The translations under genes were made by a program, and so were the position numbers. From Sapria himalayana (lineage: Eukaryota; Streptophyta; Magnoliopsida; Malpighiales; Rafflesiaceae): a stretch of 64,000 bases of DNA. Under the pieces are notes generated by a model. That model worked only from the letters and a program-made list of their open reading frames with translations. It had not been told where the DNA came from and made no database searches. Shown here piece after piece: positions 34,251-64,000 of this stretch. The stretch is from the NCBI GenBank assembly GCA_029783825.1, contig JAREIK010002034.1:665788-729787 (forward strand). The letters run 5' to 3'. How positions within the stretch are numbered: the stretch's first letter is position 1; each line of letters starts with the position of its first letter.

Positions 34251-35492
34251 GTCTGGTGTTCAGACTACTAAATAATCTTAAGTATTTTGTGTTTTATGAT
34301 GATGCGTAGACTTGAAAATGAAGATAATATGAGTTGATTTCATGATATTGGCATTTAGGTAAGTTTTGTTGTGTAGTCATGTAATCAAAAGGTTTTTGGA
34401 GATGTAGTTTCAGCATTCATTCTTGGCCAAAGCTCTACTTTATTGTTTCGAGAAATTTTTATATGTCATGATTGATGACCCTACTAACTCATTAGCATAA
34501 TCCTTCCACTATGAAATAAATTCTTAGTGGTTATGATATTATCATAGATTTGTAGCTATCCTTATTTCAAAAAATTTAAATATCTATGATACTAATTCTT
34601 CGACATGCTACTCAAGTACCTCATTAGTGCTAAAGGTCACGACCAAGTCCAAGTTCTAGAACTTTATCTTTAATATGACTCAGTAGTATCAAGTCAAAGT
34701 AATAGCCTTTTTGCAAAGTTGTGACTTTTGATTTACAAAAATTTATAGATCCATAACTACTCAGGCCAAAGTCATGATACTTATTCAGAGTTGTGACTTT
34801 TAAGACACTAAATATTATAAAGGATAATAATTGGGTATGATAATTTCTAAGGTTGTGAGTCTTTTTATATAAAAGGAAGAAATAAACATGACTTATATGC
34901 TTAAGCTAATTGTTAGTACTATGACATCCTAGAAGTACCAAAGCAATGTGATATATGAGAAAAGAGAAAGCTAGTGTTAAGGCCACTCACAATGGCATGG
35001 ATGCTTGAGAGATATGAAAGAAGAATTATGGGTCAATTTCATAGCCAGTTTTCAATATCATGGCCACAACAAACACATGAGAAATCTCATCAGCATCTTG
35101 TCTATTTCTTGGTACCATGACCATATAAAACTCAAGAAAGACCATTATTAAAGTAATGACTTCTACATAGTGGACCCATTAACAAAATAAGATGTCATTT
35201 ACCACTATATGGCCATGTCCTAGCATTGTAGCCCTTTATGGATGACAAGATGACATATGCATAAAGGCATAGCTGCTTTATAATATTGTTACTTTGTGTA
35301 ATAGAGACATTAGGCCCAAGTCATGGTTATTGCTAGTGTCATGATTTTTTGTTTTTGAAATATCAAGATGCAGACTAGAATCATGACTATTTTCTAGAAT
35401 TTTGATTTCAAGTCAAAGAGATAAATATAGAAGTTATGATATTATTTTAAAAGCTATGACTTTCTACATAAAATAATACAAGGATGCATGAG

Positions 35493-35500
35493 TATAAATA
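35493..35500 (+). promoter_or_regulatory. TATA box, Athila 5' LTR
   Basis: tataaata sits at the same place as tataaata at 46941 in the partner LTR, downstream of the palindrome-rich region and just before a pyrimidine-rich leader. Confidence 0.6.
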
Positions 35501-36444
35501 TGGAAGATAGAGAAATTTCAAAGGATCTCTCTTTTTTCCTCTTCTTCATCTTCTCCCTCATGTAACAAGCAAAGTCATACTAACTATCAAACCATATTAA
35601 AGAATTTCACACTTCATAGGAGTTCCATGGGCGGGCAAGGGATGCAAAATTAATACTAATACCTAGAGTTGATGGTGCGACTCAAACCACTCTTCTCTAG
35701 GATGGATTTGAAAATTAATATCAAACTAACATGTGTCTAGGGTTTGTGTGAATCAAGATATATACTATAACTTGGTTTTTAATTAATGAATAAATGTGTT
35801 TCATCTATTTTATGTTATGGATATTGATAGATAGTTATTAAAAAGAACTAAATCTAAGATTTTGACTATTGTTAGATTTGTGCAAGATTATCACGATGAG
35901 TATTGATAGATATACCACAATGCTCACCCTTGCATATAAACCTATACATTAAAGCCTAAAATTTAGACATATTAATCATCATAAGTATATTAGTTACAAA
36001 GACAAAAGTACAAATATTTTTATATACCAACCCACCATACACATCTTAAAATAACTAGTACTCAATTAGGATGAAAGATTTGAAGGGTATTTTTCCAATG
36101 GGCCCACCCCCAGCGCGAGAGTCACATCATCATTAAGAAGAATTGAGACAAGTAATCTTTCGAACATGCTCGAGTATATTATAACTCATAAGGTGATAAT
36201 AGCCATTGTGAGTTACTTTTACATGAATGATTCATTCTAATAAAACATGAGAGAAACATATGTTAATTATGCAATTATAATGATTATAAAGCTGAAAGAA
36301 CAAATGCTTGCAAGTGATATTAATCTTTGGTTTCTATGACATGTCAGTCTAAAGAATATGAGTATGCATATGAAGTAATCATCAAGGGTAGTTGATGAAG
36401 ATGCTTAAGGGGTATAAGATTGTGAATAATTCTCGAGTAGAAAT

Positions 36445-39400
36445 TAAAGGTGTCATACAGGCCGAGCATCCCAGGCATGGCCTAAGGCATGGCCAGACTC
36501 AGCCATGAGTAGTTTGGCACAACACAGTCCTGAATCGTGCTTGGGCCCTTTAATTATCATAAAATATTAAAAAAAATTGAAAAAAATGATTTTACTTACA
36601 TTTTTACAATCTATATATTTACCCCCCCCCCCTCATTCTTATTTTCTATCTTATATTTCTCTCTTTCTCTTTGTCATTCTCTTTTCCTCTCAACTTTCGT
36701 CTATTTCTCTCTCTCTCTCTCTCTCTCAGTCTCTTGTTCTCCTTTTGGTTTCGACTTTTAGGACTAGTGCAAAGTGTAGACTGGCAATTATGGGGCAGAC
36801 ATTATAAAGCAAACAGGATTTTACAAAATATAAATATTAATTTTTATATTTTGTTTAATTTAGTTTTTAAAATTTTAATTTTAGTTAAAACTTTTAGTTT
36901 AATTAATATTAATTAATATATAATTTTAAATACAAAAAATACAATATAATTAATAAATTAATAAAAAATTAAATGAAAAATAATAATTTTTATGATGATA
37001 ACAAAATTAATATAAATATAAATATTGAAAATTTTAATATGGATAACAATAACCTCTACGAAAAGGTTCGAGGCTGCTGAAACTTTGTTTTTTCCAATCG
37101 CCTCAACCCAAATATCTAAAAAACAAAAAACTAGAAGAAAAATCAATAGTTTGGACTCACTTTAATATAATACAACATAAAAATATTAGGGTTGTCGATG
37201 AAGAATTAGCACAATGCAAATATTATAAAAAAAATATTTACTTGTAAGAGTTCATGTGGTAATAGGTACCTTAAGAGGCATGCCAAATAATGCACCAAAA
37301 ATATGGTGTATTAGATCCTAGGAAAACCCAACATAGCAGTGTGTTCTTTGAGGCTGGATCCAATTCAATCTCAATGTTGACCCCCTTCATATACCATAGC
37401 AAGGTAGGGATGAAAGTCATGACCAAATTGATTACTAAAATGGGTCATTCGATTAGATTTTCAGAGGAAAAATGGTAGTTAGTATCAATCAAACTTATTT
37501 TTAGCCTATATATCATAGGATTCCTAGGCCCACATCTAGGAACGGCATACTAAAAATATTATAACTTAGAAAAAAATTATAATTAATGAATTGAGGGCAT
37601 ATAGTAGAGTGGTATATGTGATGTCCAATATCTAGACTAGTCATGACGATGCATCTTATGTATACCTTACTACCCACTATGTAGATTTAAACTGGATACT
37701 AAATAAAAAAATATTAGAATTATTAGAGATTCTCCAATCTCATGATGGCCCGGTCATTTATGAGTGCATGATGAGAATCTTTAGAGAATGTAATATTCAA
37801 AATAAAATATATAATAACACATTTGATAATACATCTAATAATGGAGTAGCCATTAACATGTTTGTTAGGATTATTAGAGACATGCCATTAAAAGAGACTT
37901 CAGATGCATGTGTCACATCATTAACCTCATTGTACAAGTGGGGATGAATGTTGTTTCCCCTACTTTCTAAAACATATATAACTTACTAAAATTTCTTGGT
38001 ATGTCTCACAGATAACAAGAGTTTGGTAGTCTTTATTTGTCTATGGGTCTAAAGAAGAAGAAATTTTAATCAGATGTAAAACACTGTTGGAATTACACAT
38101 ACTTAATGTTGAAGTCATGTGTTGGATATGAACACATAATATTTGACTACGCCAATAGTGAGAGTGACGAACTTATTATTGCGATACTGATTGGGCTACA
38201 AGAATTTTATTTATGAAAAATTTGAAAGATTTTTTATGATACTATGAACATGTATTCATATGTTAAACTCTCACCACTTACATTGCACTCAGATCCATAT
38301 ACAATATTAGTAGCATGTTTAGGAAGTTTAGAGATAACCTGATATTTAGTGATATAGTTGTAGAGATGGAAACCAAGTACTTAAAATATTGGTCCACCAT
38401 TTCATCTCTTTATTGTTTGGCTGCCTACATGGACCCTAGGGTTAAGGTGGAAGGGGTAGAAAATATTTTGACATACATATTCTCGTCCATGAACCTAGAA
38501 GACCAACCTAAAGGGTTCATTCACAAAAAGTTGACTGTACTATTTACATACTATGATACTAGGCATGGTGGTGGTTGTTGTGAGACTCCTAGTATGGACA
38601 TGGATACCATATTTGGAGATGATGACTTCTCTATTGAGTTAGCAAGGGGGAAATGACAGGGTGGACCGTCAAATAGAAGCGAGCTGTCTAGGTACTTAGA
38701 TACTGATTGCTGCTCAATCCTATCACATACCAATAATAAGAATCTTGATATTTTATAGTGGTGGAAATCATATGAGTTCACCCATCCCATGTTGTCTAAG
38801 ATGGCATGAAATCTACCGACTCCTCAAGCATTTAGTGTACCATCGGAGTCTACTTTTTCTATTGTAGAAAATATGATTTCAGATAGGAAATCAAGATTAT
38901 GGCAATATATTATTGACACATTAGCATGCATGAAGGATTGAGAGGATTCGAGCTTGGGCATCCATGATTGTGCTGTAACTACAGCAAGAGTGGAGGAGTT
39001 AGTTGGTGATGAAGATACGTGGGACTTTGATGATGACTGACGACTGAAATAAGATTGAGGCATTAAGCTAAGCATATTGTTTTGCCTATGACCTACCACT
39101 AGTGATATTGATATCATAATACACTAACTTAATTTATTATTTTTAAATTATCTTTGTTTAATTATTTTTGTAATTTGACATTAAGGATTAAAATTTCTGC
39201 TTTTTTTTGTTATTATGTTTGTTTATTCAGACACTCACTAATGGGATTCATGTTTTATGTTTATGAGTTTATCTTTGGTATATTGCTTTTTATCTTTTAA
39301 TGATTTTATCTTGGTCTTGCTTTGTTATTTTGTAATTTATATGTATTTTTAGTTGTTAGTTGTGAGTTGTGAGTTATGACTTGTGATAGTATTTTTGTTT

Positions 39401-39679: not shown

Positions 39680-40113
39680 GCAGAAATGAATTGTTGTATT
39701 GTTGGTCATGTGCTGAGGTGATATCTATGATAGAACTACCAATAGGATGAGCTCAATTGTGACAACTACCTTGTATGCCAAAAGGACAAAGACTCATTGC
39801 ACAATACCCAAACCTTCATCTTATTTATAAAATAATATTAATCATGCAACTTAAATATTATCACATAGATTAAATAAAGAAATCACAGGCCTGAGATTGT
39901 CTAACAATCTAAATATTCATTTTACTAAAAATAGGTTTTTTTATTATTGAATGATTGAATTGTCAATATAATTCGTATGAGATACTCTATTATACTAATT
40001 GAATGATTCATGCACTTGATGATCTCAATTGATGATATACTCTCATTAATGAGTTTTTTGGACATTGCCTAATCAATAAAATTAGATGGCAAAATAAAAT
40101 TTCAACAAGTAGT

Positions 40114-40130
40114 TGACACCACTACCAGGA
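40114..40130 (+). other. Athila primer binding site (tRNA-Asp type), decayed
   Basis: tgacaccactaccagga stands seven bases after the LTR end. The intact site complementary to tRNA-Asp is TGGCGCCGTTGCCGGGG. Seven positions differ, six of them G-to-A, consistent with methylation-driven decay. Confidence 0.8.
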
Positions 40131-40329
40131 TTGTTTAGATTAATTAGTCAATATAAGTTGACATAATTATTTTTGTAAATAGATATTTCTCTTTTAGTTA
40201 TTTAGATAGTATTGAGTTTGATAAATATTCAAGAATTTAAAAGCTAAATCTTGTTAGCATGTTTGAACATAAATTATTATATTATTGCTTTGTTTGTTTT
40301 ATTTGTATTTTGTTTTCTTTTTTTAGCAC

Positions 40330-41115
40330 CTATTTATAAGTTGAAGCTTTGGTACCGAGTTATCCCTTCTAAACCTAGAAATCAAAAGAACATAGAAAAA
40401 CTTTTACTAGAAAAAGAACTAATAAAGAGCTTATGGAGAGCACTATTAGTAATATAGAACCCCAAGGTGATAATGGAAAAGATATCCAATAGCTCATCCA
40501 CTATCATACCTTAAGAGATTATTTGAGGTCCATAGTGATGCATAGTCATTTAAGAATTCATTTCAAATTATTTTAAAGCAATTACTTTAGTTGAATCTTA
40601 TATTTATGGTTTAACAATACCAGTATAGCATAAGGGCATTAGAGGTCCCTAATAGACATGTCACAATGTTTATGGAGATAAATGATACTTAAAAAATAAA
40701 TGGAGTTAGCCCCAAAGAAATAAGGTAAGATTTATATCCATTTTCATTAAGTGGTAAGACATAGAGTTAGTTCTAATGCTTACCATGGAGATGAATTAGT
40801 GAGAGTCAATTTTTCTAAATTCATCCCACCTCAAATTACACCTCAACTATGGAGCGATATAAGCTAATTCTAGCAAAAAGAGCATAGGAATTTATATGAT
40901 GCTTGTGACCATATTAACGAGTTGTTGAGAAGATGTCCTCCAAACATATTTGAGTTTTTATTCTAAGTCTGAAACTTCTATGATGTGTTGAAGTATATGA
41001 CATGGTGCATAGTTGATATAACTATTAGATGATCAATTATGAATAAAATGACTTTTATGAGGTTGTGATTTTTTTCAAAGTCATGACCTTTGAGAAGTCA
41101 TATGTTGACAGCTCT
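40330..41115 (+). pseudogene. Athila gag remnant (first element)
   Basis: The scrap 'NGVSPKEIR' (40700) matches 'NGvs.d.irLrlFpfSL.dkA..WL' of Athila gag. Then comes 'ACDHINELLRRCPPNIFEF' (40899-40958), matching 'aW.RfKeLLRkCPhHg.p.w'. 'NFYDVLKYMTWCIVD' (40971-41017) matches 'tFYnGL...tR.lvDAa'. The 'IMNKMTF' segment follows (about 41036), matching 'MnKtpeEAyeL'. Gag forms the virus-like particle. The sequence is interrupted by many stops. No pol follows. Confidence 0.8.
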
Positions 41116-41159
41116 AAGAAGTTGGGGTATCAAATGAGAAAGATAAGGCTGAGATAGAA

Positions 41160-41540
41160 ATCATAGAGAAACATATCAAAGACAAGGTTGTGGTTATGCC
41201 CAATACCATTAATTTGGAGATACAAAATGAATTAGTCCACCAGAAGCTTAAGGCAATGTCATCACTATGCACTACACTATAACTTTAGAGATACAAAAAG
41301 AAAAGGGAAAGGAAAACCTTTAATACAAAGATGTGACTTAGTAGATACAAAAAGAAAAAGGAAAGGAAAAACTTCAAGACAAAGTCATGACTTTAATTAT
41401 ATCTATGAATTTAAGTTATAGAAAGAAAATGAAAGGCTTAAAGGCAAAGTCATGACAAAACTCAATAATACAACTTTGAAAATCTAGAATGAAAAGAGAC
41501 AATGTAGTGGAAAAAAAAAGATGTGACATTCACTAAATTC
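41160..41540 (+). repeat. Degenerate ~70-bp tandem array in Athila internal region
   Basis: About four to five units each carry gagatacaaaaagaaaa-like purine-rich DNA followed by caaagtcatgac or aaagatgtgac (about 41207, 41282, 41346, 41417, 41483). In the reading frame each unit resembles 'leIQkEkgKEkLqdKvmT', a charged, helix-favouring repeat of roughly 23 residues. The palindrome GTCATGAC encodes the VMT step. The second Athila element lacks this array. Confidence 0.65.
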
Positions 41541-41997: not shown

Positions 41998-43390
41998 TTT
42001 AGTATTCAAACTACTGAATATTCTTATGTATTTTCATGGTTTATGATGATGTGTAGACATGAAAATTGAGATATTATGAGTTTATTTCATGACTTTGATA
42101 TTTTGATGAGTAATAATGAATAGACATGATATTAATAATTTTTGGAGATATTTGGTAGAGGTGATAAAACATTCTGTGTTGTGTAGTTTTCACATATATT
42201 CTCGACCGAAACTTTACCTAATTGGTTTGAAAATTTCTCGTAGGTTAAAACCCTACTAACTTATTAGTATAATCCTTCTACTATGTGATACATTCTTAAT
42301 ATTATTATTGAATCACAATCATACTTATCTTAATAAATTTGAATAATTATGATATTAATTCTATGTCATAGTAACCAACCATTCGACTGGTGCTCATGCT
42401 CTTCACCAATTCTAAGTATCATGATTTTATCTTTAATATGGATTAGTAGTCTCAAGTCACAGTCATTAAATTTTTATAAATATGTAATATTTAATCTATA
42501 TAAAATTACAAAGTCACAATTACTCAGGCCAAAGTCATGAGAATTATTCAGAGCCATGACTTTTGTGACACTAAATGGTATATAAGACATTATTTGAGTA
42601 TATTCATTTTTCCAAGGCTATGATTCTTAACCTTAAAAAAGGCATATTTGTGACATATTCATTCGAGCTAATTGCCAGTGTGGTGGAATCCTAATAGTAT
42701 AATGACAATATAGTATATGAAAGAAGAGAATATCAGTCTTGCCACCACTCATAACTAGAGGTGTCAAATGGGGCCGGGGCCAGGCCGGCCGGCCCACTTT
42801 TTTTGGGCATGAGCATGCCTTCGTGCCGGGCCAGGCACGGCACGGTTACTATACCGCGCCGTGCCTTGCCCGGCATGGTTTAAAAAAGCCGTGCTCGGCA
42901 TGGCCCTAGGCACGACAGGCCGTGTCGTGCTGGGCCCGCTCGGGCCTGGCCTGGCCGTACGGGCTAGTAAAAAAATATTTTTTTAATTTATTTTATTTTA
43001 TTTATATATATTATTAAATTAAATATAAAATTATAGATAATGTATAATATTATATATTTATAATATGAAAAATGTTAAATTTTATTAAAATAACAAAGTT
43101 TAAAATTTTTTTTATAATGTAATAAAAAATTAGTTTAAAATTTATTAGATTTATATAATATAGTTATAAATTTTTAAATGGAAAATTAAAACAAAAAAAT
43201 AAATAAATAAATACATTTTGTTAAAAAAAATAAAAATTAAAAAAAACATAAGCAACTAAAATGAAAAATGACCAATCAACCATTTGATATCGAAGATCCG
43301 AACCAAACAAATTACAGTTTTAACTTAACATATAAATAAAGCGTACAATCAATAAAAAACAAAACATCGAAATCAAAAAATAGTAGATCA

Positions 43391-45300
43391 TCATAATTCG
43401 TCAATCGGCATATCATGAGCATCATCAGCCACAACATCAAGATCAGTATCATATGGATCATCATCATCAATAATCAACTCCTCAGCTATCGCAGTGAATG
43501 TGGTTGTAGTCTCTATCCCAGTCCCAGCTCCAGCACTATCATGGATGCTAAACCTCGAATCCTTCCAATCCTTCAAACAAGCCAAGGCCTCAACAATATC
43601 TGGACGTAATCTCGATCTCCTATCCGAAATCACATTCACTACAACAGAAAAAGTAGACTATGATGCTATGCTCGACACCGGAGGAGTTAGTAGATCCCGT
43701 GCCATCCTCGATGGCATGGGAAAGGTGGACTCATATGATTTTCACCACCGTAATATATCAAGATTCTTAGTATCAGAATGTGATAAGATTGAGCAGTAAT
43801 CGGTATCTAAGTACCAAGAAAACTCGCTCCTATGTGATGGTCCACCCCTACGTTTCCCCCTCACTAGCTGAATGGAAAATTCATCATCTCCGAACAAGGT
43901 ATCAATGTCAGTAATCACAGTCTCACCACCACCACCACCATACCTAGTATCGTAGTATATGAACAAGTCAGTCAACTTCTCGTGAATGAACCCTTCAGGT
44001 GGCTCTTCCAAGTTCATGCATGAGGAAATGTAGGCTAGGGTGTTTTCTACCCCTTCCACCTTAGCCCTAGGGTCCGTGCATGCAGCGAGGCAATAAAGAG
44101 ATGGAACGGTGGACCAGTACTTCAAGTGCTTGGTTTCCATCTCTGCAACCATATGGCTAAATGTCGGGTCAGCTCGATACTTTCTAAACATTCTACTAAT
44201 GTTGCATATGCACCGGAGTGCAATGCAAGTCATGGGCATATAAACCGACGAACACATGTTCGTCGTGTCATAAAAAATCTTCAGGAATTTCATAAATGAA
44301 ATTCTTGAAGCCCAGTCGTGTCGTCAATAATAAGTTCGTCACTCGTATTATTGACGTAATCGGATATCACGTGTTCGTATCCAACACATGATTCTAACAT
44401 CAGGTACATGTAATTCCAACGATATCTCATATCCGATTGAAATTTCTTCTTCTTAAGATTCACAGACAAACAAAGACTACCAAACTCTTATTATCTGTGA
44501 GGAGTGCGAATATATTTTAATGCATTACGTATATTATCCAACGTGGGGAACACACCTTCATACCCGCTTGAACAATCAGGTTAATCACGTGACACATGTA
44601 TCTGACATAAAAGATCTCTCCTAATGGTGCATTTCTAATATTCCTAACAAACATGTTGATCGCTACTCCATTATTAGATGCGTTATCGAATGTGACACTA
44701 AAAATTTTATTTTAAATTTTATATTTTCTAAAGATTTTCATCATATACTCAAAAATGGTCGGGCCATCATGAGGATGAAGAATTTCAAAGAATCTTAAAA
44801 TTTTTTTATTCATAGTCCAATTAGAATCTACATAGTAGCTGGTGAGACATGCATAAGATGATTCATCGTGACTTGTTCAGATATCGGATGTCACGGACAC
44901 CACTCCACTATATGCCATAAATTCATTAATTAATTTTTGTTTTTCTAACTTATATATCTTTATCATGTCATTCCTAGATGTGGACCTAGGAATCCTATAA
45001 TAAGCATGCTGAAAATATGTCTGCATGATGCGCACTACCCTTGGATCTTCCGAAAATCTGATCAAAAGACCCATCAATGTAATAAGTCTGGCAATGCCGT
45101 CCCTACCCAACTCTCTGGAGTATATGAAGGGAGTAAACTTTGAGACTGAACTCGATCCAGTCTCAAAAAATGCAGTGCCAAGTTGGGTTAGCCTAGGATC
45201 TAATGGACAATATTTTTGGTGCATAATTCGGCATGCCTCTTAAGGTGCCCAGTCCCAAACGAACTCTTACATGTTAAAAGTCTCATATAATATTTGCACT
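43391..45300 (-). pseudogene. hAT transposase remnant (copy 2, better preserved)
   Basis: Two long open pieces survive: 45224-44877 (115 codons, after a BED-finger 'HLKRHAELCTKN'-like lead) and 44293-43742 (183 codons). The second covers the core and the segment 'YLDTDYCSILSHSDTKNLDILRWW' spread over 43820-43745. The C-terminal dimerisation region continues in another frame from 43639 ('VISDRRSRLRPDIVEALACLKDWKDS', split across 43636-43560). An acidic tail runs to a stop at 43391. Core residues are closer to the family than in copy 1. The break between pieces lies at about 44300-44870. It is not functional as read, but it is the most complete protein in the window. Confidence 0.9.
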
Positions 45301-46160
45301 GTGTCATTTTTTATTCCTCACCCCTAACATTTTTTTTGTTTTATTATATTAAAATGAGTCCTAACTATAGAAGTCCTCCTTGTTTTTTGTTTTTTAGAAG
45401 TTTGGGTTGAGACGACTGGAGAAACCAAAGTTTCAGCAGCCTCATACCTCTGTGTAATATTTTCATTTTCTAAATTAAAATATGTTTCATTTGTATTTGT
45501 CATTTTTTAGGATTTTTGTTATTCAGAATAGTTTTTTAGAGACTAGAAGACTGATTTTAATTTTTTCTAATTTTTGTATAGAGAGAGAAACTAGAGAGAG
45601 AGAGAGAGAGAGAAAGTTAAAAAAACTTAAAATAAATTACCCGGTAAAAGTAGTGAGGTTGGTCACATGCACCGTGCACCATAGTCAAGCTCTATGTTCA
45701 AAACTCAAGTTGAGATTCCTAAAAATCCAAGCCAAATGCCGAAATCTCGAGTCCCGAGAGAGAGAAGCAAGATTTTTGAGAGAGAAATTGAACGATTTGA
45801 GAGAATTTATGTTTATGAAAAATATAAATATTAAAGAGATAGGGGTGGAATTTATAGATTAAAGATAATACTTTAAAAAAAAGTAATTTTTTTAATTTTT
45901 TTGAATTTTTTAGGGGGCAGAATCATGAGGGTCATTAGATTCTGCCCCTAGCCGTTGGAGGCGAGATCCAACGGCTGAAAATTAAATTTTTTTTCCGTTG
46001 GGGGGGGGGAGAATTGGGTCGGTTCAGGCCTCGTGGGACCGCGGGTCGGGTCCAATCAGACCCGACCCGCGGTCTTTTTTGCGTGAGGGGCATGGGCCCC
46101 TCGCAGGGTCGAGCTCGGGGGACACTCGACACGGGACGAACCCGTGCCGGGTCAGGCACG

Positions 46161-46224
46161 GCACGGCACGGGCGTGGCACGGCACGGGCGTGGCACGGCA
46201 CGGGCCTGGCACGGCACGGGCGTG
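46161..46224. repeat. Four 16-bp GC-rich tandem units near a hAT end
   Basis: gcacggcacgggcgtg repeats four times (46161, 46177, 46193, 46209) with one base different in the third unit. Such subterminal repeats are candidate transposase binding sites. Confidence 0.9.
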
Positions 46225-46940
46225 ATTTTTCAGTGTCATGCCTGGGGCAAGGCATTTTCCGTTGAGGGGCAAGGCACGGGCGTGATTTTTCAGTGATTTT
46301 CCGTTGAGGGGCAAGGCACGGCATAGCTCGTGCCTTGCCTGGGCACGGCATTTTCCCGTGCCGGGCAGGCCCCGGCACGGCCGAACCATGCCGTGCCTCA
46401 AGCCGGGCCGGCCCGGCCTGGCCCGGTTGACGCCTCTACTCACAACACCATGCACTCGTGATCGACATGATGGGAAATTTTTGTGTCAATGTCATTTTTC
46501 AGTGTCATGACTATGACTAACACATGAGAGATCACCTCAATGTCATGACTATTTTTCTGTGTTGTAGTCATATAAAACTCAATAAAGATCATTACCAATA
46601 TCATGGCTTCTACATAGTAATGTAGCTATATAATAAAATTAGAAGTCATTAACCACTCTATGGTCATATCTTAGTGCCACGACCTTTTATGGATGACGAG
46701 ATAATAAAGGCTTAATGATATAGTTACTTTATAATATCACAACTTTATGTCAGAGAAATATTAGGCCCATATCATGGCCATTTCCAGTATCATAAATTTG
46801 TGTTACAAAAAATCAAGATGTAGACTAGAGTTGTGACTATTTTCCAAAGTCATGATCTCAAGACAAAGAGATGAAGGCTGAAGTTATGATCTTCGTATGA
46901 AATTCATTGTTTTTTTTAGAGTAATGCAAAGTCTCATGTG

Positions 46941-48893: not shown

Positions 48894-49605
48894 TGATAGG
48901 AATGGCTCATACTTCTACAAATACAACATGTATTCGGTATTGTGACTTGAATTGTGAAGTCATGACTAAATGGAGTCATGACCTATTTTTTGTCGTTGTG
49001 ACTAAAAGATTCTATATTTGATGTCGTGACATGAATTGTGAAATCAATACTTAAATGGAGTTGCAACTTATTTTGTGTTATTTGGATTGGAAATCTTTGT
49101 GTTCGGTATCACGGTATGAATTATGAAGTCACCATTTAAATGGAATTGCAACATGTTTTGTTTTGTTTTGACTGAAAGTCTTAAGGATGACCTTTTTTAT
49201 TTGGTTTTTTGACATGAACGGATGAAGTCATAACCTTTTATGTGTTATGTCTGAATGATTTAAGGATTCAAGTCATGATCTTGTTATATGGTATCATTAT
49301 ATGAATGAATGAAGTCACAACATGGATATGATATCATGACTTTGGTACTGTGTTTTTTAAATAAGTTTTTTGTTTTATATATAATGACTTATACATAGAA
49401 TGTAAAAGGTGGTTTTAAAGGTGTAGAGTCTCTTAAGAAATAAGATAGTAAAATTTTTTATACAATCTTCTATCTTTTCTTTCATGCATTGTGTGATTTA
49501 TCTTTGAGAGTTGTCTTCCCCCTTCTCAAAATCCTAAATTACCATCATGAATCCATACATTTGGTATTAGATAAAGGGTATGCTAGATATCTCAGATTTC
49601 TAACA
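48894..49605 (+). repeat. Copia 3' LTR with internal minisatellite
   Basis: Starts tgataggaatgg after the polypurine tract and ends cagatttctaaca. The last 250 bases align with 29807-30013, the surviving end of the 5' LTR. The first 450 bases are a tandem array (separate entry). Length about 712 bp. Confidence 0.8.
48934..49350. repeat. ~85-bp minisatellite in copia LTR, palindrome-bearing
   Basis: About five degenerate units run head to tail. Each carries a ggtat..tgac(at)gaatt.tgaagtca phrase, an aaatggagt..(tg)(ca)ac phrase and a (t)tgactgaaagtctt phrase. Palindromes include GTCATGAC (48958 and 48975), GTCGTGAC (49023), GTTGCAAC (49060) and GTCACAAC (49314). The array lies in the U3 part of the LTR. 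Confidence 0.75.
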
Positions 49606-51199: not shown

Positions 51200-51380
51200 T
51201 TTATTTCTAGTGATTGCTCATACGACCCTCCTCCCTCACCACATTGAGATGTATATATTTTTTTGATATGATGTTATGAGATGCTTTTCTTAGGATATTA
51301 ATGTTGTAAATAAAATTGTTTTTATCTTTGGAGAAAAATTCATTGCTAGGGGTTGAGCAATACTTTAGTGTGTGAGTTTA
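51200..51380 (+). other. Athila 3' internal end and polypurine site
   Basis: tgctaggggttgagcaatactttagtgtgtgag (positions 51346-51378) is the same signal that precedes the LTR at 41998, here better preserved. Athila elements typically show a GGG.ACGAGCAA...TTTAAGTGTGGGGG string at this place. Confidence 0.65.
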
Positions 51381-51826
51381 TTTGGTACTCAAGATACCAA
51401 ATAAATAGTATTATTTAGTGAGTACAATGCAGTGTATTTGCATGAATACTAGTGGTTATCAAAAAGATTTTACTAAATTCTTATTTTTAAGATGAAGTAA
51501 TTAATATTAGTGAAATTAGAAAGAATTTGGTTGAAATCGATGAACTTTGCAGGAAATTTACTTGTAGGAGAGAGAAGAAATAAAGAATTATGAATACTTT
51601 AGTGTGTGAGTTTGTTTGGTACTCAAGATATCAAATAAATAGTATCATTTAGTGAGTACAATGTAGTGTATTTGCATGAATACTAGTGGTTATCAAAAAT
51701 ATTTTGTTAAAATCTTATTTTTAAGATGAAGTAATTAATATTAGTGAAATCAGAAAGAATTTGGTTGAAATCGATGAACTTGACAGAAAAATACTTGTAG
51801 GAGAGAAGAAATAAAGAATCATGATA
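51359..51826. repeat. 234-bp tandem duplication across polypurine site and LTR start
   Basis: aatactttagtgtgtgag...aaagaat is present at 51359-51592 and again at 51593-51826 with few differences, so the LTR start occurs twice. Confidence 0.9.
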
Positions 51827-54040
51827 CTTCTTTTGTCATGATTTATATACAATCTTCATATTATCCTTAAGTAATTATAGTATCCTTTCTTGGTTGTAAC
51901 TCTTTCAAAATAGTCATGACATTCTTTGTATACCATGACTCTACTACTAAATTGATATAATCATTTCATTGTGTGACATAATAATCATAATTGTGATAGT
52001 TTCTTGGAGTCACAACTACATAAGCTCTAAACTACTTAATGGTTATGATATTATTTTTGTTTCATGGCAGTCAAGTACCCCTTTGGTAAAGGTAGTCATG
52101 ACACATTATAGAGTCATCATTTATTCAAATAGATCCAAAATATTAATAGATGTAGGTTGTGGTATCATTTTTTACCAAAACATTTCATTCAAGAGAGAAA
52201 TAACTTGATCATATCATTCACAGTGTCATGAAACTTAACTTATAAAGCCAACACTAAAGTCATGGTCAATTCTTAGTATCATGATTTTGTGTTACATCAA
52301 GAATTTGATTCAATCATGGCAATCTCACCACATCAATATTTTATTCACAAATCCAATACCAAAGTCATGACTAATTTCCAACACAATGATTTTGTGTTAA
52401 AAAAAGTTTAAGCATTTATCATGTCCATTAATAGCACTATGACAATTATGCTCTAGAGAGGATCCAAAGTGATGACAAAGTCATGAGTTCAACTTTGTGT
52501 TGCAACATCCAACTTAATAAATCATATGGATTCTCAATATATAAAAACTACCCTTAGATAAATCAAAGAAAAAAAGGAGAGGGGAGTGAGATATGGAGAG
52601 AGAGAGAGAGAGAGGAGAAAAGATCATCAAAAGGTCATGATGCATTCCAGTCTAGGTATAATGACCTCAACCTCATTTAGAGGCAAGTCCAAGGCAAACA
52701 ACAAAAAAATTTGATTAGAATTAGGGTTTTCTTTTTGGAAATTAGATTAAGCATCTATTAGGAATCCTATAATCTATGAGATGACTTTTCACCACCTCAC
52801 ATGATTTTATCCTTAATATTCATCTAGATTAAAGTTTAGAGTTGGTTATGTAATTATTTTGTGATGGATAATTGAATTAATGAATTTATATTTAGTTTAT
52901 AATGTGTTCGGATGTTTATGGATGTGGATGCACCTGAGAATTTCAAATAAGGGATTTCATGAATACGTCAATTTATGTGAGTCAATTATGGTAGATAGTG
53001 ATATGTATCTCACTAGACATAGTCATGTGGTTTGAATAGAATCAAGTGATAACCCTTCTAATCTTAATGCATGAGATAAACAAGCATGTGAAAATCTAAG
53101 TTTACATATATTAATCATTATGAGTATGATACTCACAAAGCTGAAAATATTAATGTATTAAAGACTAATCTATTATGTACTATCTAGAGAAACTAATCTT
53201 GGAATAATGTGGAGATTAAGTAAAATATCTTACATAGGAATTTAATCATAATATGTGAGACATGTAGTAGCCATGTCAGACAATGACAAGTATGTCATTG
53301 GGGCACACACAAGTGGGGGAGACTCATAGAGTGATGACAGCCTTGAGAATTATTCATGCTTGTATGTTTTTCATAAGTGAAATTCTTGAGAAGGCATATG
53401 TTTAATTGTCGTAAGTATGGTGCTCATGAAGTTGAAAATATAAATGAATTTAGTAACACATTATCTCAATTCATTGAATTAAATATAAGTTGGAGAATAT
53501 AAGTATATACTCTAAACATTCATCAAAGATAGTTAATATCTTGCCTAAAAGGAGTAGACTTTAAAATGCCTTTACATAGATTGATATATTATTTTGGTGT
53601 TGAAATACCAAGGGGACAATAATGAGGAGATCATCCTAAGTAGTGACACTCGAACAAATGATGGTCACCTTTGTATGCTAAGAGGACGCATGAGCATTTT
53701 CATACTAATATACCCTTCATCTAATAACCAAACACAATATGAACCAAACATAGACATATCATCATACATAAGTATGTGTGTCAACCCTAGAGAATGAATA
53801 TATTTTATAAGATCAAATATATCTATTTAACTCGTATAGTCATCAATTCATTATTGTTAGACTAAACTATCAAATAATCATTATAGAATTGATACCTAGA
53901 CTTATGTCCACTTTATTACTTGTATGACTCATATATTTGTGGGCTATGTTTGTTGAGAGATCCTCACTCGACTAAGTTTTGTGACTGTGTTAAATAAATG
54001 TGAGTTTTGGCACTCTCACAAAGTCACAAAAAATAACAAC
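51381..54040 (+). repeat. Athila LTR (third copy), 3' LTR of a truncated element
   Basis: Begins tttggtactcaagataccaaat after an Athila polypurine site. It then follows the same order as the other LTRs: palindrome-rich part (51880-52500), TATA-like tatataaaa (52538), a (GA)n tract at 52593-52613, and the aattgaattaatgaat...gatgtttatggatg part (52870). It continues with a tttacatatattaatcattatgag part (53100) and an end near 54040. Its 5' internal region is missing, cut off by the minus-strand copia fragment. Confidence 0.75.
52538..52546 (+). promoter_or_regulatory. TATA-like box, third Athila LTR
   Basis: atataaaaa at the position homologous to 35493. Confidence 0.45.
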
Positions 54041-55428: not shown

Positions 55429-55429
55429 G

Positions 55430-57165
55430 GTAGATATGTGTAAAAATTCTATTGTTCCCACTTACCATATATGGAGGCTATCATGCTTGGACTGTTACTA
55501 CCAAGGATGATCCTCAATTAGATGTGCCATTGGCATTTTACCACAAAAACCATAAATCATCTTAACGTCTACTCTTTTCAGGCAATAAGTCAACTATCCT
55601 TGATAATTATTTCAAATATATATATCTATTCTTTAACCTATAATATCTTAAGCATGTAAAATGGTGTAGTATTGCATCAATTTTTGCTTTTGGATTCATA
55701 AGTACGAGTATAATACTTCATGGTAATTAACATATATCTTCCCACAAATCTCACATATGAAAGTCATATAAGAAGAAATGACTCGCATGTTTGTCACCAC
55801 TAAATATGTCTCCTCCACTTGTATATGCTCCATGACATACCTATCACTATCTGCCATAACTGACACACAGCTTCCATATTATAGTAAACCCCATATGTTA
55901 GATATTCTACTTAACTCTCACATCACTCAAAGGTTAGTACTTCTAGAATATGCAAAATAGATTTTTCATAAGTAAATTCATACTTTTGGCTTTATAAGTA
56001 TCAAACTCATAATGATTAAACTTATCTCAATCTTAAGTTTTTACATATAAGTTTATCCGACATGTTATGATTAGAAGGATTTTCATTGCCTTCTTATCAT
56101 ATCGCATAAGAGTATCTCATGACTTGTCATTATCTACCATAGCCGACATGCATAAACCTATGATATAATGAAAAATTTTAAATATTAGTTCTATATAAGA
56201 ATTATATCCATCAATATCAAAATCATAATATTACCACAAACATAAACTTTTAAAAATCAAATCATTATTACTAAGTATATAAAACCAACTTTAGATCTTG
56301 ATTTCTAAACAAATATTACTCATATTTTTTTTGGATTTCCCCCCTAAATGGAAGTTAAAATCATGATGCCTATGATTTTTTGTATGCTCTTGGCTTGAAA
56401 TCTAATTTTTATTCTCTCTCTATTTTAACTAAACCTTATAAGTGTTGCTTTTATAACTTGGGGGTATGTGCAATACTTAAGCTAGAAGTCACAATACTAG
56501 CTAGTGATCATAACTTTCTTATCTCGTTAGATCTTTTCTATAGTACAAAAGTCATGATGACAATGAATATTGTGATGCAAGTAACTTTATCTGAACCAAA
56601 TGTTTATGGAGCTAGGAATATCATGACAAAGACAAATTCTCTCTAGAGCACAAAGTCATAACATTGAGAATAACCATAGTTTTGATCTTTACTTTGGAGA
56701 AAATTATCAGTGTTGGAATAACAGTGACTAATATAATTAATCTCTAGAACACAAAGTCATGAAATTGGGAATGACAATGAATTTTGTATTTTCTCATTAT
56801 ATCACAAGTCATGGTATTGGAAAAGTCATGATTAGAGTAAATACTCTCTAAAAAGTCTTGGTATAAAATATTATCATGACTCATAATACTTAATATCTCA
56901 GCTCTATATTGAATAAGTCATGATATTGGAAATTACAGCAACTAATTGTACCAGTGGATACTTGGCTATCATGATATGAAAATAATGTTAACTATTATTA
57001 TATTTAGAGATAGTACATCCACAATGCCAAGAAAATATCGATATTGAAGACTATATTGCATAGTTGAAAGCTTATATGAACTCAGTGATATAGTCGTGAC
57101 ATACAAAGTTAGAATATGGAGTGTCGAATAATACTCTTGATTATGTATTTTAGTTTGGTAGAAAC
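55430..57165 (-). repeat. Athila LTR fragment, inverted, inside the second copia
   Basis: On the minus strand the order matches the other LTRs: ctaccatga-type start (57100), palindrome-rich part (56950-56380, e.g. GTCATGAA, GTCATAAC), and an aatcattatgagtttgatacttataaagcc part (56000-56020). A cataagtgtcagtt-like part and a gatagcctccatatatgg part (about 55485) follow. The LTR termini were not found, so it is truncated on both sides. Confidence 0.7.
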
Positions 57166-57169
57166 AATA

Positions 57170-57667: not shown

Positions 57668-57672
57668 GAGTT

Positions 57673-60051
57673 TTTGGTATGCCAAATATCAAATAATATT
57701 GACCATTTGGCATGCTTGTGAAATCAAAATTTTTTAGTGTGAAATATATGTTGGTGCAGTTGGTGACTAGAATGGGAGTGAAAAGTCCTGCAAGTCATAG
57801 CATCTTCACACATAATCATAAAAATTTTTTTATGTCATGACTCTACTACCTTGTCGATACAATTCTTCCATTATGCAATACATTATTTTTGTTCTATAGA
57901 TTTCTTGGAGTCATAGCAAAACTAGCTCAAAATAACTTCCCATCTTTGACATTAATTTCACATCATATTAACCCAAGTACCCTACTAGTGCTAAAAGTTG
58001 TGTATCCTCTAGATGTCATGTTTATTCCTTTGCCAAATCACAAAATACTCAAGCCAAAGCTATGATGATGATGTGTCATCATGCCTTTTGGATATAGAAT
58101 GTTATAGAAAACTAAACTTAAGTCATAATCAAAACAAGCACAATAACTCTTGGCTCAAGAGAATAACAAAAGCCGAGATAATTTTTCAATGCTTTAACAT
58201 AGGGTTACATAAGTAAAATGCACAAGTCATAGTCATATTTAGTATTGTGACAATGTGTTATAAAGACTAAATACACAAGTTATTATCATATTACCGCACC
58301 ATGCCTTTATGTTAAAGAGGCTAAAATTGTCATTATGACTTTTCTCAATGTCACGATCATTAAGCAGAAGGAGGAGGACATGGTCATGACTTATAACCAG
58401 TGGTGTGACTATGTTACAAAACCAAAAGACCAAAGTCATGAATATTACTCAGTATCACAACTTCCAATTAAAAAACTCATACCAAATGGACAGGCATATA
58501 AGAAAAATCCTAAGAAGCCAAGAGGAAATCCAAAAGATGAATTTGGAATGTGACCCAAGGGGCTCCATGATTCTATTTTCAGAGTGATCCATGAGAAACA
58601 AGGGTGATAGAGGTACAAGCATAGATCATAAAAGGCGGGCATGCATTTCAAATCCCCTCTTAAAAGCAAATCGAACTAAAATTAAGCAAATTCTGATGAA
58701 TTTAGGTTTTGAAGTTTAGAATCTCTCAATGGTTAAAATTAGACACTTAAATTCATTTGAGATTAATTTCCACATATCTTATTAGTTATTCTTCCTAATT
58801 TCAAGCTAAAAAGGAGAATACATGGATAGTTTGGTTAGGATATTCTCCCAAGGGATTTAGGTGTAATATATTTATTATAATTAATGTTATATTTAATGCT
58901 TTAATGTGATGGTTTATTATGATATTATTTTGTTATTGATAGTATGATAATTAAATATAATTGAGACTAAGGTTTTTACTACTAGTGGATTTGTGTGTGG
59001 TTGGAGTGGTGAATGATGAAAGAAAAGCTACAAAACATATTCATGCATATGGTAGGAAAGAAGTTTCATCCCTTCAGACCATGATGCATTTGACAAACCC
59101 ATAATCCCATATGCTAAAACTCAAAATTTGTATATTTAATTATTGTAGGTATGATACTTATGAAGCTAAAAGTATAAATACTTTTATAAATAATATCATT
59201 AAGCATATCTTAGAGGAACTGACCCTCAATTGATGTTAGGTAGTAAATAGAATATTCTCCTAAGAGTTTTATATTTAGTGTGTGTGTCATATGTCATAGT
59301 TATGGATGATTTTAGGTATGTCATGCAATAAGCATATATAGATGTGATTTGTGTAGTGATGATAGTCTTAAGAGTTATATTTAGCCATATGGCTACTACT
59401 GATAAAATACAAAGAAAAGCATATGTTAATTATGCTAGCATTGTGTTAATGAAGCTAAAAGTGTAAATATTTTTAGTATTATATGAATTTTCATCTAGAA
59501 AGATACTAGTGGTCATAGAATAAAAATGCATATTCAAAGCAAATACTAAGGATTATTATTGAGTTGCCTAAAAGGTGAAGACTTATGGATGACACTTGCA
59601 CAGAGATAATATATTGTCTCACTAGTAAAGTACTAAGAGGACAACTATGATGAGTTCATTATTAGGAAAAGCTCAATAATTGATAATAACCTTGTATGAT
59701 GGTAGAGCAAGAGACCATTCCACACTCATCTAGCTTTCTTTTTATAACTAAGCATAATCACAAGAAAGTTATTTATGTATTCCATCAAAAATAAAAATAT
59801 AAATCATCCCTAGAATCTAGGATTTACAACTTGAATCCTATTTATTGTGCCTATTATAGTAGCTATTAATTATTATTGACTAATCTGACATGAATGTGCA
59901 ATCCCTATGAGATTGACTTATAGACTAAAAGTCTTCTTTAGTACTTATGTGACATGTATACTTATGGAATGATGTTAGATAAGAGACTCTCACCCAACTA
60001 ACTTTTGGTATGCATCTAAACATAAAATTAGGTGTTATAATAATGTCAATA
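57673..60051 (+). repeat. Athila 5' LTR (second element)
   Basis: Starts tttggtatgccaaat and ends just before the primer site. It aligns with the other LTRs, including ccctactagtgctaaaagttgtg (57972), GTCATGAC at 58383, TATA box at 58497, and a gattggagtggtgaatgatg part (58996). The end part gactctcacccaactaacttttggtatgc (59980) also aligns. About 2.38 kb. Confidence 0.8.
58497..58506 (+). promoter_or_regulatory. TATA box, second Athila 5' LTR
   Basis: tataagaaaa, identical to the core at 62223 in its partner LTR. Confidence 0.55.
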
Positions 60052-60057
60052 AGTTTT

Positions 60058-60074
60058 TAGTATTATTGTTAGGG
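60058..60074 (+). other. Athila primer binding site (tRNA-Asp type), decayed
   Basis: tagtattattgttaggg against TGGCGCCGTTGTCGGGG differs at eight positions, and every difference is C-to-T or G-to-A. Confidence 0.8.
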
Positions 60075-60249
60075 ATTGCTTTTTCTAGTTTGGTTGGTCA
60101 ACTTTAGTTGATGTAACTGCCCTTGAAAAGAGATAATTCTAATTTTAGTAGTTTTCATAATATATTATCTGGTTTTATTTTGCTGAGATTATTTATCTTA
60201 TATTTATCTTGTTTTCATTATGATTTTATCATAATTTTTTTCCTTCTTT

Positions 60250-61640
60250 TTTTTAGCCACATCATATATGAACAAAAATTCTAGGACTATGGTAAAACCT
60301 TTGGATCGAGAAATCAAGATAAAAAGGGGAGTATTCTGAAATAGTGTATATAAAAATAGGCTATGAAGGAACATGCAATGATAGAGAGGTCCAAGGTGTC
60401 AAGGGGCATGCAGTCTAATAGCCCAACCATTATTGTACCTTAGGTGATTATTGGAGGGTTATGATTATGAATAGTTATTTAGGAAATTAGAATGTAGCCA
60501 ATTAAAGTGGACTATATTGAGTGGAAGCTTTGTCTGATAGTGATGGTTCAATAGCATCAATAGAGTGGTAGGATATCGAAGGATTTGAACTTGTATGTCA
60601 CTATGATTAAAATAAATGGAGTTAGCCTGAACATCGTCAAGTTGCATTTATTTTCTTTTCTTATAAATAAAGCATAGAGTTTATTCTAGTACTTATCTCG
60701 AGGCTCCAGCTAGAGTTGGAATAAACTTGTATAAGCTTTCCTCACAAAATTTTTTCCACCTTAAATCACATTATCAATAAAGAGTGAGATAGGCTAAGTT
60801 TATCATAAGGAATTATAAACTTTGTATGAGTTTGAATTATGATTTAAAGCCCAAACTTTCTACAATGGGCTAAATTATATGATGATTCACTACTAATGCG
60901 ACTTCTGGGGGTTCAATTATGAATAAATCTTTTGAGGAGGCTTATTTGTTGTTTGAAAAGTTGACAAAAAATAGCTATCAACTTCAAATGACCATGGATA
61001 TGGGAGAAGACAAGCCATAGTTTTGGAGTTAGATTAACTCAACACAATGGAAGCCAATGGGTTGTAAATTAATGAGGTGAAATAAAATGTGAGGGAGAAC
61101 TCATCAGTTTGCAAGCACAAGAAATGACAACTTTTGATCCAATTTATTAATTAGAGGAAGTCAATGGATTGCAAAGTGAATGGTTCAACCCAGCCTTAAT
61201 ATCTCCACATACTCCCATCTAAACATGACAAATCATAAAAATTTATTTTATGTGAGTTATGGAAGTGGGCACCAAAATATTGCCCAAGCCCCAAAGAAAC
61301 TTAGGCATAATTCAATGAAATATATATAGCAATCAAAGAGAGTCAACCCCAAATTACCAAGTCTAAAAAGTAGAAGAGATGTTATCAATGGATGAGAAGT
61401 TAATGGCACAACTAATCGAGATGAAGTGAATAAATAATTTTCCAAATAATCACTTGGAGAATCTTAAGACTATGTTTTAAAATACAAATATGATAATATG
61501 AAGTTTAGAATGTTATATTGGAAAAATAACATTATCATTGAAAGGAAAGAGTATAAATGAGATACCTAATGATACAGAGGCCAACCAAAAGAAATACTTG
61601 TCCATAATGCTTAAAAGTAGAAAAGAGCTAAAGAGACAAC
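60250..61640 (+). pseudogene. Athila gag remnant (second element)
   Basis: 'NGVSLNIVKLHLFSFLINKA' (60617-60676) is the gag capsid motif NGvs.d.irLrlFpfSL.dkA, followed by 'LTKFFPP' (60742-60762, FlakFFPp). 'FKAQTFYNGLNY' (60844-60878) and 'NATSGGSIMNKSFEEAYLLF' (60897-60956, DAaaGGsLMnKtpeEAyeLi) come next, then 'NSYQLQM' (60970). The C-terminal part has 'SLECYIGKITLSLKG' (61503-61548; the usual form is nLE.qiGQla..l..rP). 'IPNDTEANQKKYLSIMLKSRKEL' (61560-61630) closes it, where LPsnTEaNPkE...aitLRSGkeL is usual. This C-terminal signature is specific to the Athila/Tat side of Ty3/gypsy. Stops and frameshifts throughout. Confidence 0.9.
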
Positions 61641-61924
61641 ATGAGGTCTGAGGAACAAGTTGAAATAAATGAAACTATTACTGATAGTGCCATGATATTT
61701 CCAAAAGAATACATTTGGGATCATTCTTAAGGTCACTACATCCACTAGACAAAATACCCAACTCACATCCTCGGCTATGATTTATAGAGAAGGTAGTCTA
61801 GATATAAGAACTCATTTGGGTATATAAGAACTCATTGATAGTCTAGATATGGACATAAAATATAGTACTAGTTGGGAGACAACCTATGAATTTTTTTTTC
61901 TACACTATATGATGTAATAATGAT
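61641..61924 (+). other. Athila 3' internal end
   Basis: agttgggagacaacctatgaattttt (61852) is the Athila GGGAGGCAACCC signal near the 3' end of the internal region. A direct repeat of tataagaactcatt lies at 61803-61840. Protease, RT and integrase are missing. Confidence 0.6.
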
Positions 61925-63734
61925 TTATAGGTTGTCACACAAAATGTACAAGCCATGGCCACACTCAATGCCATGACAATGAGTTATAGAGACTAAATAC
62001 ATAAGCTACAACCACATTCTAACACCATGAATTTGTGATACATAGGCTAAATGAGTTGTTGTGACTTTTCCTAGCATCATTACCATCAAGCAAAGGAAAG
62101 AGACCAAGTCATGGCGCATAACCAATATTGTAAATTTGTTTATATAACTAAAATGCCAAATCCATGATTTTTATTCAGTGCTATGACTTCCAATTAAAAA
62201 CCACTCACAAAACATTTGGGTATATAAGAAAAATCATAAGAATTTAAGAGGAGATCCATAAGAGGCATGAGGAAGATGACACAAGGTGGAACTAAAACTT
62301 TATTTTTGGGGTAATCCATTAGTAACAAGGGCAATACAAGACACAAACATAAATCCAATGAGGTGGGCACATATTTTGACCTTTCCTAAGGGCAAATTAA
62401 AGTGAAATTGGGTGAGTTTTGAAAGTTTTAGGTTTTCCAACCCAGATTATTCCGAGGGTTTAAATTAAGTATCCATGTTAAAATGAGATAAATTTACACT
62501 TATCTCATATGTTATTATTTCCAATTTCAAGCTAAAAGAATAATCTAGAGTTGGTGTAATATGTTTATTGTTATGGATGATATATCTAAAATTTTAATAT
62601 GATATTTTGTTGTAATATTATTTTGTTATGGATTGTTTGTTAATTAAATAAAATTAAACTAAGATTTTAGTTATTAGTGGGTTTTTACATGATTGGACTG
62701 GTGGACATTAATAGGTATGCTACAAAACATACGCACATATATGATTAAAAAAAAGTGATAACTTTTCCAACCATATGTACGAGACAAATTCATATGCTAA
62801 AACATAAAATTAAGGTATATTTAATCATTGTGAGTATGATGATTACAAAACCAAAAGTATAAATATTTTTAAAGTCCATTTCATTATGCATATCTTAGAG
62901 GAACTAACCCTTAATTAATGGTTGATAATAAATATAATATCCTTCTAAAGGTTTCACCTTTAGTGTGTGAGTTTCCTATCATAGTGGATATTCATGATAG
63001 GTAAGTCATGTGATAGGCATAGATATATGTGATTCATATGGTCGTGATAATTCTATGAGTTATATTTGGTTGTATGACTACCACTAGTGAAATACAAAAA
63101 AATATATGTTAATTGTGTAAGTATAATACCAACGAAGCCAAAAATGTTAATGTTTTTTTACCATATTAATTACATCAAGAAAGATACTAGAGGTCAGAGA
63201 ATAAGAATACATATTCAAAGCAACTATTAAGATTAGTTTATGAGTTGTTTAAAAGGTGATGACTTGTGAATGACTTCTAAGAAGGGATGATGTATTCTCT
63301 CGATAGTAAAGTACCAAGGGGATAGTTATGAGAAAATTATCAATGAGAGAGTTCAATAGTTGATAACCACCTTATATGCCGATAGGGAAAGAGGTCATTT
63401 TACACTTATCTAGCCTTCATTCTATGACTGAGCATAATCACAACAATGCTACTTATAAATTCCAACATACATAAAAATATGAATCATTTCTATAATCTAT
63501 GATTTACAACTTGAATCATGTTTATTATGCATATTAGAGTAGTTGTTAATTATCTTTGAATAATCTTACATGTGTGTGTAATCTATGTAAGATTGAAATC
63601 TAGACTAAAGGTTCACTTTATTACTTGTATGACTTATATACTTGTTAAATGATGTTGGATCAAAGGCCCTCACCCAATTGTTTTTGAAATGCACCTAACT
63701 ATAAAATTAGGTGTTATCTCAAAATCATAACATA
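61925..63734 (+). repeat. Athila 3' LTR (second element), 5'-truncated
   Basis: Aligns with 58200-60051: caatgagttatagagactaaatac, gagttgttgtgactttt, aagcaaaggaaag, TATA at 62223, a gggttttaaattaagtatcc part, gattggactggtggac, a tcgatagtaaagtaccaaggggat part and a ctcacccaattgttttt part. The first ~530 bases of the LTR are missing. Confidence 0.8.
62223..62231 (+). promoter_or_regulatory. TATA box, second Athila 3' LTR
   Basis: tataagaaa, homologous to 58497. Confidence 0.55.
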
Positions 63735-63764
63735 GAGTTGAAATTGGGATGAATAAAAAGTATT

Positions 63765-63778
63765 CACCAAGTAGGAGA
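63765..63778 (+). other. Polypurine tract of the second copia element
   Basis: ccaagtaggagaac precedes attagaattgac, the same arrangement as ccaagtggaagaa before tgataggaatgg at 48881. Confidence 0.6.
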
Positions 63779-64000
63779 ACATTAGAATTGACTTGTACTT
63801 TTTTTGAAGTTATTATCTTTGTAATGGAGTAGTGGCCATATTCTATGAAATTGTGATTGGACTAAAGCTAGAATAAATGCTAAAGAGTCATGCCCTATTA
63901 TGTGGTGTCATGACACGACTAAAGCTAAAATAGCTATTGAGGAGTCACGGCTTTATTCTATAAAGTTATGACTAGACTAAAACTAAAATAACTAATGAGG
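63779..64000 (+). repeat. Start of the 3' LTR of the second copia, with ~60-bp tandem array
   Basis: At least three units begin near 63838, 63895 and 63954, each with a tatt.tat..(a)gt(t/c)atga(t/c) phrase, gactaaa(g/a)ctaaaat and a gaggagtca phrase. GTCATGAC lies at 63908. The array runs into the window end. Confidence 0.6.

Follow-up and report, generated by a model that had tools for sequence, protein, structure and literature searches.

What is the origin of the short, near-identical words that recur in a 64,000-nucleotide stretch of the genome of Sapria himalayana (contig JAREIK010002034.1 of assembly GCA_029783825.1, positions 665,788 to 729,787; hereafter the window)? An earlier note on the right-hand part of this window, 34600-64000 (hereafter the region), proposed that the long terminal repeats (LTRs) of old mobile elements once carried dense arrays of the 8-base palindrome GTCGCGAC, and that each of its two CpG dinucleotides was then either kept or independently turned into TG or CA. 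This scheme generates nine words, all beginning with GT and ending with AC. We find that the words are strongly enriched and clustered, and their relation to one another by CpG decay is well supported. The more specific claim, that every GTCATGAC descends from GTCGCGAC, does not follow; support for an ancestor with two CpGs is confined to three sites, and such an ancestor is plausible for more.

Enrichment of the motif words

All of the words named in the note are present, and the positions that it gave are off by 0-9 bases at most (41087 is corrected to 41080, 41393 to 41384, 48958 to 48959, 52368 to 52364, and 46833 to 46830; the rest are exact). The region contains GTCATGAC 15 times, GTTGTGAC 5 times, GTCACAAC, GTTGCAAC and GTCGTGAC twice each, and GTCACGAC once, which gives a total of 27; exact counts of GTCGCGAC, GTCGCAAC and GTTGCGAC in 34600-64000 were zero. 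The total for the whole window is 32, including 19 copies of GTCATGAC, four of which lie to the left of 34600.

This enrichment is real, and stronger than had been stated. In 300 dinucleotide-preserving shuffles of the region, the nine words together occurred 1.21 times on average and 6 times at most, compared with the 27 observed, and only 0.34 copies of GTCATGAC were expected. Markov models predicted 0.84 (order 2) and 1.69 (order 3) copies of the same word, far fewer than the 15 found. For the whole window, 100 shuffles gave 0.64 copies of GTCATGAC (largest 3, observed 19) and 8.3 matches to GTYRYRAC (largest 16, observed 44). Among 16 analogous sets, GT..AC ranks first in enrichment, at 21x; the runners-up reach 5x (2 sites) and 4x (7 sites). 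When one flank mismatch is allowed (relaxed sites), 94 sites are found in the region, compared with 29.6 in 20 order-2 simulations. The window itself is AT-rich (31% GC) and CpG-depleted, with observed/expected ratios of 0.30 and 0.36 in two parts.

CpG decay between aligned copies

Decay was tested on diverged repeat copies within the window, where a position was counted as having a CpG history if TG stood against CA or if a CG was retained. The control consisted of equivalent tetranucleotides with other flanks. Six of 58 aligned pairs were excluded for gaps, leaving 52. Among words with exact flanks, 13 of 40 motif dinucleotides have a CpG history, compared with 23 of 378 in the control; with at most one flank mismatch, the count is 22 of 104, and exchange of TG for CA alone accounts for 16 of 104 (control, 18 of 378). 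Fisher tests of the motif against a slightly looser control gave p values of 2.8e-5 and 2.3e-4, which serve as a guide only, since the histories of the pairs overlap and some few sites are counted twice. Against this looser control, the share with a CpG history falls from 0.325 with no flank mismatch to 0.167 with one, 0.091 with two, and 0.074 with three or more. The excess is robust to leaving out each of the 10 alignments in turn, so that no single alignment is responsible, and it remains when both tandem pairs are omitted together (8/28 compared with 23/362). The possibility that the upstream parts of the copies were generally CpG-rich was rejected: the CpG history of CA, TG and CG outside the motif is 5.3% both in the arrays (23/432) and in the bodies of the copies (39/735).

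The word counts bear on the same point. Among the 132 two-mismatch classes of GTCATGAC, the class of GTTGTGAC and GTCACAAC has the lowest p (7 observed, 0.65 expected, p 5.8e-6), and among the 12 one-mismatch classes, GTCGTGAC and GTCACGAC have the highest ratio (3 compared with 0.13).

A separate observation concerns a hAT transposon copy in the region, where GTCATGAC at 37640 is aligned to GTCACGAT; this is CpG decay in a non-LTR element.

Evidence for two CpGs in the ancestral word

Both positions of a site have a CpG history in 3 of 20 pairs with exact flanks (3 of 52 when one mismatch is allowed), compared with 2 of 207 in two control classes. Two of these three pairs fall within a single tandem array with units at 48.93-49.18 kb. 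At its first site, the units read GTCATGAC (48975), GTTGCAAC (49060) and ATTGCAAC (49145); at its second, they read ATTGTGAC, GTCGTGAC (49023) and ATCACGGT (49108). The most parsimonious ancestor would be GTCGCGAC at the first site and GTCGCG[A/G]C at the second. The third pair is GTCACAAC at 52009 against ATTGTGGA. In addition, GTTGCAAC at 52499 is aligned to ATTGTGAC. Some pairs differ by C or T at position 2 (GCCATGAC against GTTGTGAC or ATTGTGAC), and therefore the ancestral word may have varied.

Clusters and repeat copies

The region had been described as peppered with these words. Many are indeed present; their spread is not even, because the sites are clustered. The window holds 12 clusters of at least three sites. 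Seven lie in repeat copies, each time in the 5' part: one each in a, c, d, e and f, and two in b, which is split. The other five are an array at 48.94-49.34 kb, a cluster before copy b, one in copy h at 3.1 kb, 855-959, and 63887-63951; the last two hold 3 and 4 relaxed sites, respectively. The clusters, with two further sites, are as follows.

3066..3280 (+): cluster of copy h, left of the region; GTCATGAC at 3235 is aligned to GTTGTGAC at 34718
29491..29582 (+): two sites to the left of the region, in another copy; GTCGTGAT at 29575 is aligned to minus-strand ATCATGAC near 51842
34465..35387 (+): copy a (34256-36271, then 39720-40111), with sites throughout this stretch of its 5' part and densest at 34636-34859; GTCACGAC at 34636, GTTGTGAC at 34718 and 34790, plus one-mismatch words
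41062..41527 (+): sites ahead of copy b and outside the delimited copies; GTCATGAC at 41080, 41384 and 41449
42086..42654 (+): sites of copy b, first part; an insert at about 42730-46438 interrupts the copy
46439..46856 (+): cluster of copy b, second part; GTCATGAC at 46504 and 46542, GCCACGAC at 46676, GTTGTGAC at 46830
48939..49340 (+): the array with the highest density, 10 relaxed sites; part of it lies on a degenerate tandem repeat (about 84 base pairs, bp), and two of its sites require CpG at both positions
51835..52641 (+): copy c, which extends to about 53940; 9 relaxed sites are clustered in its 5' part
56488..57100 (-): copy d, whose orientation is opposite to that of c; its 5' part holds a cluster of 7 relaxed sites (56488-56924) and GTCGTGAC at 57093
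58244..58461 (+): cluster in the 5' part of copy e (58215-60038)
61970..62187 (+): copy f (61941-63717); the sites of its 5' part align with the copy e sites, and the last, GCTATGAC at 62180, is outside the relaxed set

Several copies of GTCATGAC lie elsewhere. Two of the 15 in the region (37416 and 37640) are in the hAT copy, those at 57834 and 63907 are outside all delimited segments, and those at 41080, 41384 and 41449 are in a stretch delimited by the cluster itself alone; of these, 41384 is within a 54-bp tandem repeat and 41449 within an extension of that repeat. Apart from two young tandem duplications, the diverged repeats of the window are mostly 66-81% identical.

The copies are probably descendants of mobile elements, for which LTRs would be the most likely kind. 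By eye, copies e and f start sharply at TG and end in GGTGTTA, and copies a and b end in GGCA.

Spacing, flanks and folding

The sites are paired. At a spacing of 18-21 bp, there are 12 pairs among the 94 relaxed sites of the region, compared with 2.8 expected (p for any spacing class, 0.002), and among 64 non-redundant sites, there are 9 pairs compared with 1.7 (p for any spacing class, 0.003). The spacers are unlike between most pairs; those at 34771 (copy a) and 58435 (copy e) are similar, and these two pairs may be of common descent. Pairs at 41062 and 63887 lie outside the delimited copies.

Removal of second-copy sites reduced the 136 relaxed sites of the window to 100, of which 24 are exact words. 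The flanks of these 24 are little informative (at most 0.18 bit at each of 13 printed positions), with a weak preference for A before and T after the 8-mer, and a longer repeat unit behind the clustering was in general rejected. True repeat units nonetheless occur at 48.93-49.18 kb and 41.29-41.46 kb.

Hairpin formation, one of the roles that had been suggested for the palindrome, was rejected as its main role. RNA folding of five array stretches (111-146 nucleotides; RNA only) gave z-scores of -1.6, -1.1, -0.3, 0.1 and -2.0, unremarkable except for the last, which reflects a weak excess of stability over shuffled sequence (8 of 200 shuffles were equally stable), and the 8-mer is without a loop. 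A TATA-like word about 40 bp after the cluster was seen by eye in some copies (52499 to 52538, 62180 to 62221, and 49333 to 49376); a TATA box at a fixed distance was dropped as a candidate, since all TATA-like words taken together have no clear excess beside motif sites.

A possible origin of the arrays and its alternatives

We propose that the ancestral elements, likely LTRs, had an upstream part with many short palindromes, with GTCGCGAC or close variants as the core and often in pairs 18-21 bp apart. Each palindrome would have been bound by a protein acting as a dimer, and the most likely candidate is a transcription activator of the host working in the U3 promoter region, so that activation rather than silencing would be the original role. 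After insertion, the copies would have been methylated and silenced, and the CpGs of each site would then have changed to TG or CA independently in each copy, giving GTCATGAC, GTTGTGAC, GTCACAAC and GTTGCAAC. A site for a dimer is the simplest reading because the motif is a palindrome with unconserved flanks, is repeated, is paired at about two helical turns, and lies in a non-coding upstream part. The U3 promoter would be the natural place because the repeat is taken as an LTR, and methylation is put forward as the cause of the decay because of what is known of plant elements. We hold this explanation as a whole tentatively, at somewhat less than an even chance.

Several results weigh against it. 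No intact GTCGCGAC exists anywhere in the 64 kb by exact word count; the earlier note had noticed none either. Of the 52 aligned pairs, 19 have any CpG sign, and in 16 of these 19 the sign is at one position only. The ratio of GTCATGAC to GTTGTGAC plus GTCACAAC to GTTGCAAC is 15:7:2, compared with the 6:12:6 predicted by equal independent decay; the fit is good (14.3:8.5:1.3) if loss of the inner C is about threefold more frequent than loss of the outer C (a = 0.23), with one parameter fitted to three counts. Because of the missing intact word, the mostly single-position signs and the excess of GTCATGAC, some sites may never have held two CpGs. Among the mismatch classes, GACACGAC and GTCGTGTC exceed the two-mismatch decay class in ratio (3 compared with 0.11), and the lowest one-mismatch p belongs to ATCATGAC and GTCATGAT (13 compared with 3.2). 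Two of the 12 clusters (855-959 and 63887-63951) and 6 of the 32 exact words are in no delimited segment, pairs at 18-21 bp number 0 (0.3 expected) among the 42 sites left of 34600, and TATA-like words are not clearly concentrated beside motif sites. Neither a target-site duplication that would convince nor a primer-binding site was seen when the printed copy ends were inspected by eye, and the one piece of a copy scanned for domains gave no hit. The same picture would be expected of old solo LTRs, which are also without a primer-binding site and gag-pol domains.

Three other explanations deserve consideration. The ancestor could have had a single CpG, as in GTCGTGAC (the reverse complement of GTCACGAC), and decayed to GTCATGAC, GTTGTGAC and GTCACAAC, with GTTGCAAC arising by chance or further mutation. 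The 16 single-position pairs are accounted for more simply in this way, the excess of GTCATGAC needs no special bias, and within the region a CpG survives in just two kinds of exact word, GTCGTGAC and GTCACGAC, 3 in total. We nevertheless consider a single-CpG ancestor unlikely, as the pairs 48975/49060 and 49023/49108 and that of 52009 with ATTGTGGA require both CpGs, and the alignment of GTTGCAAC at 52499 also speaks against it. TGAC is the core of several plant factor families, and GTCATGAC might itself be functional, for example through outward-facing TGAC half-sites, the other words being ordinary mutations. This would fit its being the commonest word by far (15 of 27), together with the various aligned pairs that have CA-TG in both copies; it is made improbable by the two-step class of CpG type having the lowest p of all 132, and by the excess of TG/CA exchange at motif sites over controls.

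The arrays might instead be the targets of a protein encoded by the elements themselves. The subterminal repeats of CACTA transposons are targets for transposase-type proteins of this kind. Published arrays of short motifs in non-coding parts of plant elements, namely the VANDAL motifs recognized by VANC, have the same role (PMC10398659). The inverted pair of copies c and d, with clusters toward both outer ends, would agree with such an arrangement, whereas copies a and b, and likewise e and f, are in direct orientation with a dense cluster at one end. Clusters toward both outer ends occur in c/d alone. In a domain scan of 10 pieces, the only one within a copy was 58251-58550 (copy e), and it contained no coding domain, which is thin evidence against this alternative, as it was the sole copy piece scanned. 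We assign a low probability to an element-encoded protein.

Returning to the array of two-CpG palindromes bound by a dimer and eroded after silencing, its truth would mean that the lost regulatory code of an element is legible from methylation damage. TG/CA exchange between dead copies would then mark former CpG binding sites even where no intact site survives, and the locus would be a concrete case in which the decay of one palindrome yields a large set of another. A bolder version is that, in an undescribed family of plant elements, dense, paired arrays of two-CpG palindromes served to switch the family's own promoter in a methylation-sensitive manner, or were landing sites for an anti-silencing factor, and that the decay products seed many near-identical GTCATGAC palindromes bindable by a different host factor. 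We regard this version as very improbable.

Relation to known systems

There are precedents both for LTRs with CpG palindromes and for plant elements with motif arrays. Heat-responsive elements are inverted repeats of nGAAn, and the BII boxes of the Tnt1 LTR are arranged in tandem and differ in sequence from the window motif. In ONSEN (COPIA78), heat-responsive elements are host-factor sites in a plant LTR promoter (PMC3907296, PMC5059998), as is proposed for the window motif. The Tnt1 LTR has several such boxes, the BII boxes, which bind defence-induced factors, and this LTR is itself subject to silencing and methylation (PMC3316501). The word "palindrome" is absent from the Tnt1 text (PMC3316501). 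The cAMP response element of the mouse IAP LTR (TGACGTCA, bound by CREB1) is, like the proposed ancestor, a CpG-containing 8-bp palindrome in an LTR, and its methylation blocks the activator, so that the repeat is repressed (PMC9729108). It is a different word in an animal element, whereas the copies in the window carry many sites each and their function is putative. The VANC target motifs of VANDAL elements are likewise short and, again in a plant element, form tandem arrays outside the coding parts; VANC proteins are anti-silencing, and the arrays are contested by RNA-directed DNA methylation (PMC10398659). VANDAL elements encode their own binding protein, whereas no such gene was found here, where little was scanned. 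The CGCG element of vertebrate CpG-island promoters (TCTCGCGAGA) is a palindrome, described as methyl-sensitive, that shares TCGCGA with the proposed ancestor (PMC6192621); it differs in its other flanks and in belonging to vertebrate gene promoters.

In the openly licensed text of PubMed Central, no described element was found under GTCGCGAC, GTCATGAC, GTTGTGAC, AGTCATGACT, AGTCATGAC, GTCATGACT, AGTCGCGACT, TCATGAC, GTCGCGA or TCGCGAC. Whole-word matches to the first four of these came only from studies of DNA duplex stability and of the mouse melanoma transcriptome; the remaining words had none.

Other contents of the window

The window contains further decayed mobile elements, including pieces of hAT transposase, diverged repeats, and a polymerase/integrase piece (PF25597) that we take to be copia-type. 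Two hAT copies, at 37014-38975 (+) and 43531-45498 (-), are in opposite orientation, 78.5% identical, and both matched by PF14372. The insert in copy b (42730-46438) contains one of these hAT copies, as well as a GC-rich stretch in which a 16-bp unit is repeated in tandem (46160-46224); copy a is uninterrupted at the corresponding point. At 27863-28087 (+), a frame of 75 amino acids is similar to subunit a of ATP synthase, with a PF00119 match (E 7e-7) that falls below the curated cut-off, and is possibly a mitochondrial insertion. No RNA family reached its gathering score in the whole window. The tandem duplication at 6703-7280 comprises two copies of a 287-bp unit with 97% identity and is far younger than the other repeats. 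The one at 51359-51829 comprises two copies (92%) of a 234-bp unit that contains the short inverted repeat TTTGGTACTCAAGATACCAAAT and is related to 29593-29808.

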